Positions 4,535 through 8,920 of a stretch of 29,158 nucleotides of DNA are shown here, piece by piece (the first letter of the stretch is position 1; every line of letters starts with the position of its first letter). The notes below the pieces were generated by a model, which did no database searches, was not told the origin of the DNA, and saw only the letters and a program-made list of their open reading frames with translations. The stretch covers positions 1 to 29,158 of the IMG/VR virus record IMGVR_UViG_3300043446_001896. One strand, given 5' to 3'. This DNA is from a virus. The position numbers and the translations under genes were made by a program.

Positions 4535-5014
4535 ATGACTCATTTAGTATTTCGCCCATTCGGGTCAACGGTTTTGAACAACAGAGAAAATTTCATCAGC
4601 ACCTTTGATAAGATGTTTGATGAAATCACTCGACGAGATTTCCCCGAACTCTTTCAACATTGGGGTGCAGAACCGTTTGGAAAGGCAGCATATCCAAAGG
4701 TCAATGTAATTTCGCAAGACGAGTCTGTGACGATTGAAGCAGAACTCGCCGGTTACAAGAAGGATGAAATTGATATTGAGGTTAAGGAAGGTGTCTTGAC
4801 CATTTCGGGTGGCGCATCGCAATTGAACGAGCAAACTGATAAATCCGTTTATCTACTTCGTGAACTGAAGCGTAGTTCGTTCAGTCGTTCATTTAAGCTC
4901 GGTGACCAATTGGATGCCTCAGCAGTAGACGCACAATTTGATAATGGGTTACTCACGGTTACAATCCAAAAATTGACAAAGGAACCAGCAAGTAAAAAGG
5001 TTACAATTAAGTAA
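4535..5014 (+). CDS. Small heat-shock protein, Hsp20/alpha-crystallin family
   Basis: 159 aa, the normal size for a bacterial small Hsp. The alpha-crystallin domain spans roughly residues 53-146, with the hallmarks GVLTISG (86-92), a LLRELKRSSFSRSFKL strand (about 107-122) and A.FDNGLLTVTI (133-144). The C-terminal tail ends KKVTIK, whose V-T-I can serve as the IxI-like anchor. Small Hsps hold unfolding proteins without ATP; T4-like phages of marine bacteria often carry one. AGGAGG (4522-4527) lies 7 nt before ATG. It is preceded by a terminator and repeats, and followed on the same likely transcript by a Cys-rich microprotein. Confidence 0.95.
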   Translation: MTHLVFRPFGSTVLNNRENFISTFDKMFDEITRRDFPELFQHWGAEPFGKAAYPKVNVISQDESVTIEAELAGYKKDEIDIEVKEGVLTISGGASQLNEQTDKSVYLLRELKRSSFSRSFKLGDQLDASAVDAQFDNGLLTVTIQKLTKEPASKKVTIK

Positions 5015-5042
5015 TTCACACTTTAACCAACAGGAGGTTTGT

Positions 5043-5099
5043 ATGTGCTGTTGCGTAGAATGTAAGTGTAGTTGCTGTATAAACCACATAACCGACTAG
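5043..5099 (+). CDS. 18-residue cysteine-rich microprotein
   Basis: ATG 5043 has a perfect AGGAGG (5032-5037) at an ideal 5-nt spacing, and the frame ends at TAG 5097-5099. The peptide reads MCCCVECKCSCC then INHITD: seven Cys in the first 12 residues, in CC, CxC and CxxC spacings, as in metallothionein-type metal clusters. I know no named family. It lies 28 nt after hsp20, and its last codons form the left arm of the hairpin at 5086-5126. A metal-binding or redox role is inference from composition. The very strong RBS argues that it is translated. Confidence 0.55.
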   Translation: MCCCVECKCSCCINHITD

Positions 5100-5126
5100 C
5101 GAGGAGGTGATCCTTATCGGTTATGT
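5086..5126 (+). other. Hairpin displaying a 12-nt complement of the 16S rRNA 3' end
   Basis: A perfect 10-bp stem (ACATAACCGA 5086-5095 with TCGGTTATGT 5117-5126) exposes a 21-nt loop that contains AGGAGGTGATCC (5102-5113). This is the exact complement of the conserved bacterial 16S 3' tail GGATCACCTCCT, twice as long as a normal SD. No usable start codon sits at a proper distance: ATC 5116 is not a standard start, and ATG 5123 is 15 nt from AGGAGG and opens only 6 codons. A second start-less AGGAG follows at 5147-5151. It could be a 30S decoy, a standby site or a regulatory RNA. Confidence 0.6.
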
Positions 5127-5168
5127 CTGGTATCCAACCTTAATTTAGGAGATAGACTAGAAATATAA

Positions 5169-5205
5169 CGAGCCGGACTGGTTCTTACTGGTTCGGTTCG
5201 TTTTT
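5169..5205 (+). terminator. Intrinsic terminator after the anti-16S hairpin
   Basis: An 11-bp stem with three G-T wobbles pairs CGAGCCGGACT (5169-5179) with GGTTCGGTTCG (5190-5200) across a 10-nt loop. TTTTTCTTT follows. It ends the hsp20-microprotein transcript and lies just before the SD of the next gene. Confidence 0.85.
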
Positions 5206-5218
5206 CTTTGGAGAATAT

Positions 5219-6170: not shown

Positions 6171-6206
6171 AGACCCCTTGACAAAATCCCCAATTAGGTG
6201 TATATT
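6171..6206 (+). promoter_or_regulatory. Sigma70-type promoter for uvsE operon
   Basis: TTGACA (6178-6183), 17 bp, TATATT (6201-6206). The upstream 15-mer is identical to that of the tRNA-cluster promoter (217-231). Transcription would start near 6213, inside the loop of the hairpin at 6183-6232 and about 20 nt before the GTG start at 6234. Confidence 0.8.
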
Positions 6207-6232
6207 TAGTATACTACTTAATTGGGGGTTTT
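6183..6232 (+). promoter_or_regulatory. Hairpin that pairs the uvsE SD with the promoter spacer (terminator and/or translation switch)
   Basis: CCCCAATTA (6188-6196) pairs perfectly with TAATTGGGG (6219-6227). Flanking A and T runs extend it to 14 pairs with one wobble (6183-6196 with 6219-6232), giving a bidirectional-terminator shape for the gene ending at 6169. The right arm contains the uvsE SD (GGGGG 6224-6228). Readthrough RNA would contain both arms and hide the SD; RNA started at ~6213 would lack the left arm and leave the SD free. Confidence 0.65.
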
Positions 6233-6233
6233 T

Positions 6234-7133
6234 GTGCCTATCAACGTTGGTTACTGCTGTATCAATAATACGCTCAACAAACGTGGTATCACTACGGGTC
6301 GTGCAATGCGTAAAGCAACCTTTGAAGCTAAGGGGTTAAAATACGCATCTGAACTTGCTCTTGCGAATGCCAAAGACCTCCTTGAAATACTGATGTGGAA
6401 CGCAGATAACGGTGTCAAAGTGTTCCGTATGGGGTCTGGTATTTTCCCGTGGGGTACCGAATATAAAGAAACCCACCTTCCAGACTATTTTGAGATTGTT
6501 AGTACGCTTAAGATGTGCGGTAACTTCGCCAAAGCTACGGGTCAGCGTATCACCGCACATCCAGACCATTTTGTGAAGTTAGGGTCTGATAAAGAAAAAG
6601 TAGTACTCAATTCTATCAAGGATTTAGAGCTACACTCAATGATATTTGACTATATGGGTCTGGAGGCAAGTCCATACAATGCTATTAATATCCACGTTGG
6701 TATGAACTTCTCTGAAGAAACAGCTCAACGTTGGATTGACAACTATCGGCGGTTGTCACCAAATCTTCAAGCACGTATGGTAGTCGAGAACGATGACAAG
6801 GAATCGGCATTCTCCATTATCCAGTTGTTCACCCACCTCCATTCAGAGTTGGGTATTCCACTTACCTTTGACTATTTCCATCACCAGTTTCACCCCGATG
6901 GATTGACTACCCAAGAAGCAGCAGAACTTGCCGCAGGTACATGGCCGGAAGGTATCACCCCACTTTTCCACTACAGTGAGAGTAAAAATGTTAATGAGAA
7001 CGTTACGGGGAATCCTCGTGCTCACGCTGATTATGTGTTTTCTCGTATTGACGATTTTGGACTCACGTTGGATGTTGACCTCGAAGCAAAAGCTAAAGAA
7101 CTAGCACTTTTCAAATATCGGGAGCTCCCATGA
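6234..7133 (+). CDS. uvsE: UV-damage endonuclease (UvdE/UvsE family)
   Basis: 299 aa from GTG 6234, chosen because GGGGG (6224-6228) is 5 nt before it and the family begins close to ..GYCCIN; a TTG at 6222 lies inside the SD. UvdE enzymes are TIM-barrel metallonucleases that nick DNA 5' to UV photoproducts and other lesions. Expected ligands are visible: HPDH (109-112), His134, NIHVG (His154), VVEND (Glu185), FDYFHH (Asp213, His216, His217), HYSES (His246) and HADY (His264). It heads an operon with ATGA overlaps to the next two genes and has its own promoter with the hairpin at 6183-6232. The family is known from Bacillus, Deinococcus, fungi and some phages. Confidence 0.95.
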   Translation: MPINVGYCCINNTLNKRGITTGRAMRKATFEAKGLKYASELALANAKDLLEILMWNADNGVKVFRMGSGIFPWGTEYKETHLPDYFEIVSTLKMCGNFAKATGQRITAHPDHFVKLGSDKEKVVLNSIKDLELHSMIFDYMGLEASPYNAINIHVGMNFSEETAQRWIDNYRRLSPNLQARMVVENDDKESAFSIIQLFTHLHSELGIPLTFDYFHHQFHPDGLTTQEAAELAAGTWPEGITPLFHYSESKNVNENVTGNPRAHADYVFSRIDDFGLTLDVDLEAKAKELALFKYRELP

Positions 7134-7279
7134 GTTTACTACTTGACATTTTTAACGGAATTGTATATTTTATTGTATCCCTTATAATTTTGTCTATTAT
7201 AAGTGTGATTTATTTGGGATTCGTATTGTATGTCCTTGTTCAAGAATTCATTAAGTACCTCTACAGAAAGTTAACATGA
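7130..7279 (+). CDS. Small membrane protein (49 aa)
   Basis: ATG 7130 overlaps the uvsE stop (ATGA), and its own TGA at 7277-7279 overlaps the next ATG in the same way. The peptide is one long hydrophobic stretch (about residues 3-38, rich in Ile, Leu, Val, Phe and Tyr) followed by a basic end KYLYRKLT, predicting one or two membrane passes with the C-terminus inside. The SD GGGAG lies in a perfect 10-bp palindrome GGGAGCTCCC (7120-7129), which could fold over the start. Coupling at both ends strongly supports translation. No family is recognised. Confidence 0.7.
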   Translation: MSLLLDIFNGIVYFIVSLIILSIISVIYLGFVLYVLVQEFIKYLYRKLT

Positions 7280-7908
7280 CACCACTCATTTCATTCGCAA
7301 TTACGACACACAACGAAGGTGAATATATTCGTGATTTGTTCGACCAACTTGTTCCGCATTGTGAACAGACTGGCGATGAAATTATTGTGGTTGATGATAA
7401 TTCCACCGACCCGTTTACGTTAAATCTATTGTATGATTATGCAGATAAAAATATTATTCAACTGTATAGTCACGAACTGAATCACGATTTCGGTGCCCAC
7501 AAGAATTTTCTGAATAGTAAGTGTAACGGCAAGTATATTTTTCAAGTTGATGCCGACGAAAAGTTTAATCAAAATCTTTTGACATATCTTCACGATATTA
7601 TTGACAACAATGATATTGACCTGTATATGATTCCACGCGTCAACATTGTCAATGGACTTACCGAACAAGATATTCGTGGATGGGGATGGCGAATTAATGA
7701 AAAGGGTTGGGTAATGTTCCCAGACTATCAAACCAGATTGTATAAGAACATTCCAGAAATCAAATGGGAAGGGAAAGTACACGAACGTATTACTGGATAC
7801 AAGACCACTGCTCCACTTCCAGAGGAAGAAGAATGGTGTCTGTATCATATCAAGGATATTGACCGTCAACGTAAACAAAATGACTACTATGACACAATTA
7901 CACGCTAA
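7276..7908 (+). CDS. Glycosyltransferase family 2
   Basis: 210 aa with the GT-A fold signature. LISFAITTHNEGEYI opens the nucleotide-sugar fold, VVDDNSTD (38-45) is the UDP-binding loop, and QVDADE (90-95) is the DxD-type metal motif. A later WEGKVHERI patch is the acceptor-side element seen in short GT2 enzymes. There is no membrane segment, so it acts in the cytoplasm. In phages such enzymes glycosylate DNA bases, virion proteins or host envelope sugars. The dehydrogenase at 2-205 could supply a nucleotide sugar, but the link is speculative. Its end overlaps the start of the IMPDH-like gene by up to 29 nt. Confidence 0.88.
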   Translation: MTPLISFAITTHNEGEYIRDLFDQLVPHCEQTGDEIIVVDDNSTDPFTLNLLYDYADKNIIQLYSHELNHDFGAHKNFLNSKCNGKYIFQVDADEKFNQNLLTYLHDIIDNNDIDLYMIPRVNIVNGLTEQDIRGWGWRINEKGWVMFPDYQTRLYKNIPEIKWEGKVHERITGYKTTAPLPEEEEWCLYHIKDIDRQRKQNDYYDTITR

Positions 7909-8920
7909 ACAAGCATACACCTACGACGACATTCAACTGATTCCCGCACATTCGGATATTGATTCTCGTCAAAATATCGACCTTACTACGAAGTTGACTA
8001 CTAATTATAGTATTAGACTTCCGTTTGTCGCGTCACCGATGGATACTGTCTGTGATAGTGAGATGGCAATTGCTTTAGCTGAGCTTGGTGGAATCGGTTG
8101 TATTCATCGGTTTATGACGATTGACCAGCAAGGAAAAGAAGTAGAAAAGGTCAAGACGTACACCAGAGGATTTGATGGTGCAACACATCACGTAATGGCA
8201 GCTATCGGTGCAAATGGTGATTACTTTGAACGGGCGTTTGAGTTGGTCACCAAAGGTGCCAACATTATCTTGATTGATGTCGCACATGGACATCATACGT
8301 TTGTACGGGACGCACTTCACAGACTAAAGAAAGAACTTCCGTCCTATATTGATATTGTGGCAGGAAATGTTGCTACGGCAAAAGGTGCACTTGATTTACA
8401 ATCGTGGGGAGCGGACGCTATTCGCGTCGGCATCGGTGGTGGGTCACTTTGCACCACTCGTATCAAGACCGGATTCGGGGTTCCGAACGTAACTTCACTA
8501 CAAGATTGTGCACGTGAAGTCACGGTTCCGATTCTCGCGTGTGGTGGTGTTCGGTCAAGTGGTGATATTGCAAAGGCACTTGCAGTCGGAGCTGATTCTG
8601 TCATTCTTGGGTCGCTGTTAGCAGGAACCAAGGAAGCGCCTGGTGCAATTATTGAGAAGTCGAACGGATTATACAAGCGGTATCGTGGAGCTGCGTCATT
8701 GGAAACGAAGAGTGTCCATAACCAAGCAAAGCGAAATGTTGAAGGTGAGTCTACAGTAATTCCTTTTAAGGGTGGTGTGAAATTTATCGTGGAAGGATTG
8801 ACTGATGGATTACGTTCTGCTCTGTCTTACGCTGGAGCACGGAATCTTGGGGAATTCTTTCCAGAATATGTGGTGGTCACGGGTGCTGGTATGGCTGAGG
8901 CTCGTCCCCACTTACTCTAA
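7880..8920 (+). CDS. guaB: IMP dehydrogenase / GMP reductase family enzyme without CBS domains
   Basis: About 346 aa. The start is uncertain: ATG 7880 or 7889, neither with a good SD, so translation is probably coupled to the upstream gene; a TTG at 7859 is less likely. The TIM-barrel core has YTYDDIQLIP, the substrate loop GGGSLCTTR with catalytic Cys191, DVAHGH and GGVRSSGDIAKA. The flap KRYRGAASL and the C-terminal TGAGMAEARPH pattern (IMPDH TxAGxxEsHPH) favour IMPDH over GMP reductase. The regulatory CBS pair of cellular IMPDH is missing, as in GMP reductases. IMPDH makes XMP, the committed step to GTP, so it would raise guanine nucleotide supply for phage synthesis. Confidence 0.88.
   Translation: MTTMTQLHAKQAYTYDDIQLIPAHSDIDSRQNIDLTTKLTTNYSIRLPFVASPMDTVCDSEMAIALAELGGIGCIHRFMTIDQQGKEVEKVKTYTRGFDGATHHVMAAIGANGDYFERAFELVTKGANIILIDVAHGHHTFVRDALHRLKKELPSYIDIVAGNVATAKGALDLQSWGADAIRVGIGGGSLCTTRIKTGFGVPNVTSLQDCAREVTVPILACGGVRSSGDIAKALAVGADSVILGSLLAGTKEAPGAIIEKSNGLYKRYRGAASLETKSVHNQAKRNVEGESTVIPFKGGVKFIVEGLTDGLRSALSYAGARNLGEFFPEYVVVTGAGMAEARPHLL

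Follow-up and report, generated by a model that had tools for sequence, protein, structure and literature searches.

The contact between the SD and the anti-SD is the best known of bacterial translation, and the sequence GGAUCACCUCCU is established as the 3' tail of bacterial 16S rRNA. In Bacillus, SD sequences that lack a start codon protect mRNAs when located near their 5' ends, and the STAB-SD mRNA stabilisers of the cry3A type harbour a strong start-less SD that is thought to bind the 30S subunit. In influenza B virus and caliciviruses, TURBS motifs complementary to 18S rRNA are believed to tether the post-termination subunit at the stop codon. The termination-coupled case of influenza B virus is described in a published report (PMC3035654). 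Here, we present an element of uncultured phages in which a complement of the 16S tail is located in a hairpin loop, next to the stop codon of a short ORF and with no start codon behind it.

The window that we analysed is the whole of a 29-kb fragment of an uncultured virus (IMG/VR record IMGVR_UViG_3300043446_001896; 29,158 bases), in which T4-like baseplate genes are encoded. Five tRNA genes are found at 262-1019, and a tmRNA is encoded close to them at 1930-2268 (Rfam RF00023, 115 bits; ARAGORN made no call). On the other side of the locus described below, a near-consensus promoter (TTGACA / 17 nt / TATATT, 6178-6227) lies within the terminator-like repeat that separates the membrane-protein gene from a UvdE gene. 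The region 6234-8920 codes for a UvdE-type UV endonuclease, a family 2 glycosyltransferase and an IMP-dehydrogenase-like protein, the latter assigned by protein sequence alone, and this gene block is largely kept among relatives.

The centre of the locus is a hairpin at 5086-5126, which consists of a perfect 10-bp stem and a 21-nt loop (Table 1). The loop sequence AGGAGGTGATCC is the exact complement of the 3' end of bacterial 16S rRNA. The stem and this 12-nt complement had been reported in a preliminary description made from the letters of the DNA, together with a second start-less AGGAG at 5147-5151 and a strong terminator at 5169-5205. The first two match exactly in sequence and position, the second AGGAG is present, and the terminator was called at 5167-5202. 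The view that a 12-mer match of this kind is unlikely by chance also held, as it occurs once in the window and in none of 100 dinucleotide shuffles; together with its conservation in relatives, this rules out a chance match of the loop to the 16S tail. A 208-nt fold of the hairpin region is far better than those of shuffled sequences (z = -3.8). The pairing of the loop with the 16S tail is predicted at -22.2 kcal/mol, compared with -12.0 for the best SD and a median of -6.9 among the likely genes of the window. These energies take no account of how a 10-bp helix would fit into a ~21-nt loop. As had been claimed, the loop SD is devoid of a suitable start codon, with no ATG, GTG or TTG at working distance on its 3' side in the window. 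An ATG at 5123 is 15 nt away from GGAGG, within the stem, and it is missing from diverged copies.

Table 1. Features of the locus, in coordinates of the window.
Feature	Position	Strand	Remarks
Upstream hsp20 gene	4535-5014	+	Neighbour, no fixed part of the unit
SD of the short ORF, AGGAGG	5032-5037	+	SD at the same place in relatives
Short ORF, 18 codons, MCCCVECKCSCCINHITD	5043-5099	+	ATG at 5043; stop codon TAG inside the loop
Stem, 5' arm	5086-5095	+	ACATAACCGA; doubles as the last codons of the short ORF
Loop, complement of the 16S tail	5102-5113	+	AGGAGGTGATCC; conserved core GGAGGTGATC at 5103-5112
Stem, 3' arm	5117-5126	+	TCGGTTATGT
AACCYT ... GGAGA stretch, start-less	5137-5152	+	AGGAGA at 5147-5152; kept in the main group and the L090/L286 group
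Intrinsic terminator, 16-pair stem and T tract	5167-5206	+	Called at 5167-5202, plus T tract
Membrane-protein gene, 316 aa	5219-6169	+	About 10 nt past the T tract

Relatives were gathered by searching 2.9 million viral contigs with the membrane protein and Hsp20 and by pattern searches, which gave about 35 distinct copies of the element in related uncultured phages. Once duplicates were removed, 32 copies passed a filter for the loop, the stem and an SD-preceded short ORF, with a row of L024 at position 5023 representing a false hit. Beyond these, there are two clear copies (L035 and L393) and two diverged ones (L054 and L299). Using a covariance model, and leaving minus-strand shadows aside, we found one copy per genome in 15 related records totalling ~1.3 Mb. 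Among known isolates, distant blastn searches returned no match in 50,697 phage records, and the covariance model identified no copy in seven phage records with membrane-protein relatives, a set that contains no positive control. Membrane-protein relatives without the unit are also found in L041, L062 and L063. The membrane protein has no Pfam or PHROG match; it has hydrophobic ends and a polar middle, and its relatives occur in phages of Flavobacterium, Stenotrophomonas, Xanthomonas, Pelagibacter and Microcystis. Bacterial genomes searched with this protein yielded no relative, hence no host clue.

In an alignment of 27 hairpins, 93% of the cells are paired, and four pairs have changed on both sides. 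The covariation in these 27 copies amounts to 0.172, vs 0.117 in shuffles, and it is above that of all 500 shuffles and all slid controls. The stem arms are ACATAACCGAT/ATCGGTTATGT in the main group, AACGTAACTG/CAGTTACGTT or AACATAACTT/AAGTTATGTT in a second group and ACGTAACCGAT/ATCGGTTACGT in a third one, and L035, L037, L038 and L281 each have a stem sequence of their own. The preliminary description had named the loss of stem and loop in relatives as evidence that would count against the element; inspection of the relatives showed that both are kept, with compensatory changes. The nine outer stem pairs harbour 10 G-U vs 1 A-C, and because G-U outnumbers A-C ten to one, the working RNA most likely corresponds to the plus strand.

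The loop of the 32 filtered copies is GGAGGTGATC or one of its single-base variants GGGGGTGATC, GGAGGTGATT and GGAGGTGGTC, the filter having admitted a few other loop variants, not all. These three are the least damaging of the 30 single substitutions for the pairing energy with the 16S tail, each of them swapping a Watson-Crick pair for a G-U pair. Weaker-pairing loops, GGGGGCGATC in L054 and GAAGGTGATC in L299, accompany poor stems. In the 15 related records, all eight exact matches to GATCACCTCC/GGAGGTGATC correspond to the element itself, and neither another exact copy nor an exact complement was found. There is therefore no evident phage partner, and the obvious partner is the host 16S tail; a partner RNA within the phage was rejected on these grounds. 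The loop can also pair weakly with itself (GGA/UCC), in a manner that tolerates two of the three variants. That the pairing of the loop with the 16S tail is under selection is well supported by these comparisons.

GATC is strongly avoided across the window (12 sites vs about 93-100 expected), in agreement with the preliminary description. Among relatives, the avoidance is strong in L005 and L294 and absent in L033, L092 and L286. The GATC of the loop is mostly retained among copies despite the avoidance in some genomes, and the loop variants GATT and GGTC abolish the site, yet pairing with the 16S tail persists via G-U. As GATC is palindromic and hairpins form on both strands, one might envision a kissing dimer mediated by GATC or a mimic of the 16S tail on the minus strand. 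Both proposals are hardly credible, however: GATT and GGTC persist and destroy the palindrome, the wobbles of the stem fit the plus strand, and the loop variants would weaken the pairing of a minus-strand mimic with SDs.

In unrelated viruses, used as a control, GGAGGTGATC is in most cases either part of an ordinary RBS that has its ATG 5-9 nt further on or a match by chance, with no long stem. Since the combination of this sequence with an ATG at that distance is a common RBS, the loop might be the ordinary or decaying RBS of an undetected gene that starts at a non-standard codon. We found, however, no start codon at a usable distance past the loop in any lineage, and no ORF follows. In addition, the bases between the loop and the stem vary freely, and on the 3' side a stem arm is maintained by compensatory changes, which makes such an RBS very improbable. 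The start-less lineages and the stem covariation also rule out the disrupted RBS of a downstream gene.

According to the preliminary description, there was no gene to start at this hairpin. The part of this claim that concerns the start-less SD stands, but almost all lineages have a short ORF whose end lies in the loop. In the window, its TAG stop codon at 5097-5099 is located in the loop, 3 nt ahead of GGAGG. Across copies, the short ORF comprises 14-26 codons, has its own SD and is often Cys-rich. In 30 of the 32 filtered copies, its stop codon ends 1-4 nt and most often 2-3 nt ahead of GGAGG; in the other two, the stop codon overlaps the first base of this motif. Under a strict test, which called for an SD, an ATG, 10-35 codons and an open frame, 13 of 14 lineages have such an ORF that terminates at the loop, compared with 0-1.5% for shuffled upstream DNA; the exception is L281, whose ORF has a weaker SD. 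The encoded peptide is Cys-rich (CxC) in most copies, with the exception of those of L033, L035, L037, L038, L281 and L393. As several lineages have lost the Cys-rich peptide and kept the stop codon, the position of the latter is conserved more faithfully than the peptide. With a short ORF ending in the loop, the likely mechanism is no longer a free decoy; it becomes a capture that is coupled to translation termination.

On the basis of these sequence comparisons, we consider it probable that the RNA element captures 30S subunits through pairing of its loop with the 16S tail and holds them without initiation, an assessment that applies to the capture and not to its outcome. Ribosomes would load at the SD of the short ORF and terminate inside the loop, thereby melting the stem. 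The post-termination 30S subunit would then meet an exceptionally strong SD within reach, with 10-12 bases of the loop available to pair with the 16S tail. Lacking any start codon ahead of it, and with the 3' arm of the stem closing right behind the SD, the subunit would remain there and not initiate. We infer both that the 30S subunit binds and that it does so after termination, and the captured subunits are probably those that have just finished with the short ORF. The RNA nature of the stem, the 16S complementarity, the missing start codon, the stop codon in the loop, the single copy per genome and the plus strand are supported by comparison of the copies. Arguing against capture, the two diverged copies (L054 and L299) combine poorer-pairing loops with weak stems, and a stem so near the SD may hinder the 30S subunit as well as hold it.

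The unit is made up of the short ORF, the hairpin, GGAGA and the terminator, usually followed by the membrane-protein gene. In L012, L017 and L024, an ATG follows GGAGA. A hairpin is also present at the terminator position in relatives, and its T tract is weak in L037 and L054. The membrane-protein gene is found 3' of the unit in most lineages, and the place of the unit in the gene block is stable. Nevertheless, hsp20 does not adjoin the unit upstream in L035, L037, L054 and L281, a gene is inserted between the terminator and the membrane-protein gene in L034, and an opposite-strand gene separates the unit from the membrane-protein gene in L294; thus, neither neighbour is strictly required. 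The four lineages without adjoining hsp20 rule out an hsp20 3'UTR element as a general reading.

A 30S subunit parked at the loop could act in cis, by setting how long the transcript lasts or how much transcription reads through into the membrane-protein gene, or alternatively in trans, by draining 30S subunits from weak-SD messages. We lean towards the former over a decoy acting on the 30S pool of the cell, and cis control, exerted on the transcript of the unit itself and on read-through to the membrane-protein gene, would be a plausible outcome, although somewhat short of an even chance. In the trans scenario, an abundant, short, terminated transcript would titrate free 30S subunits, to the detriment of weak-SD host messages and to the benefit of strong-SD phage messages. 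It is consistent with the unit having its own terminator, with both neighbours being changeable (hsp20 is missing in four lineages, and the membrane-protein gene is cut off in L294 and L034) and with a loop pairing far stronger than that of any RBS of the window. However, the unit keeps one gene-block position in most lineages, nothing indicates an abundant transcript, and the main group has no evident separate promoter ahead of the short ORF, so that a trans decoy appears doubtful. We propose only tentatively that the locus represents a phage micro-gene whose main product would be an RNA trap for 30S subunits, with the short ORF delivering ribosomes into a loop that would pair with almost all of the single-stranded 16S tail and retain the subunit, thereby shifting which messages are translated in the infected cell.

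In most lineages, the short ORF, the hairpin, the terminator and the gene follow each other in this order within ~180 nt, with only ~10 nt between the T tract and the gene and thus no room for a promoter, and most copies harbour many Cys codons. These features are reminiscent of a leader-type attenuator, in which the translated short ORF, perhaps as a sensor for the supply of cysteine or ribosomes, would govern the formation of hairpin and terminator, and the membrane-protein gene would be expressed by regulated read-through; the loop would then matter through the position of the ribosome. We deem such an attenuator unlikely, as no alternative leader/terminator pairing stood out in the one form tested, several lineages have lost the Cys codons, which are few or absent in L033, L037, L038, L281 and L393, but kept the stop codon and the loop, the unit of L294 persists though an opposite-strand gene splits off the membrane-protein gene, and a leader would not need the full 16S complement. 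A Trp-like switch between the 3' arm and the conserved AACC was discarded; the corresponding pairing is possible in most copies, but it is no better than in shuffles. L294 and L034 also weaken the case for a strict leader of the membrane-protein gene.

The presence of a strong start-less SD beside the 3' end of the unit raises the question of RNA-end protection, by which a 30S subunit next to the terminator would shield the hsp20/short-ORF message from nucleases. The principle is familiar from the Bacillus mRNA stabilisers, but the location is 3' rather than 5', and hsp20 is not always upstream, making this role quite unlikely. Nothing that we found points to a role in 16S maturation, which had also been suggested in the preliminary description.

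If 30S capture is true, a conserved natural RNA uses the SD/anti-SD contact for a purpose other than initiation, in a manner coupled to a stop codon. This would offer a direct way to probe the fate of 30S subunits after termination and to ask whether phages use RNA to steer translation via the 16S tail. Because the element is small, it is testable in standard E. coli systems.

In Rfam, no family reached the gathering score for the element; only tRNA and tmRNA were identified elsewhere in the window, and the best local hits were far below threshold. The literature on SD decoys, start-less SD hairpins, phage small RNAs, poly-cysteine leaders and termination tethers, in a search that left subscription journals mostly outside, contained nothing matching. 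The absence of a counterpart in these sources is in line with the preliminary description, whose author knew of no phage element of this kind.

Several known systems nevertheless share features with the element. As with CsrB, an SD-like sequence in the RNA would serve to titrate a cellular factor, but CsrB is a sponge that binds the protein CsrA via many GGA sites, whereas the element has one site and its target would be rRNA. Ribosome standby sites hold a 30S subunit on structured RNA, as the element would; they feed a nearby start codon before initiation, and no lineage has one downstream of the element. Leader-peptide attenuators of the amino-acid and poly-cysteine types combine, as most copies of the element do, a short ORF rich in one residue with a hairpin, a terminator and a gene. 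In contrast with them, the element has a peptide that some lineages do not conserve, its loop complements the 16S tail, and the one switch form tested gave no antiterminator. The STAB-SD has in common with the element a start-less SD complementary to the 16S tail. It is unstructured and located near the 5' end, whereas the element is a conserved hairpin loop at the stop codon of a short ORF, by a terminator and in phages; in the window, it follows hsp20 and the short ORF and precedes the terminator stem by 53 nt. TURBS resembles the element in being an rRNA complement adjacent to a stop codon. However, TURBS is eukaryotic and upstream of the stop codon, with re-initiation nearby, whereas the element is bacterial and downstream of the stop codon, with no start; the next gene begins 120 nt on, beyond the terminator. 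In its putative function, the element comes closest to the start-less Bacillus SD stabilisers or, conceptually, to the termination tethers of some eukaryotic viruses, but it lacks a defining feature of each. The pairing in itself is that of an ordinary SD contact.
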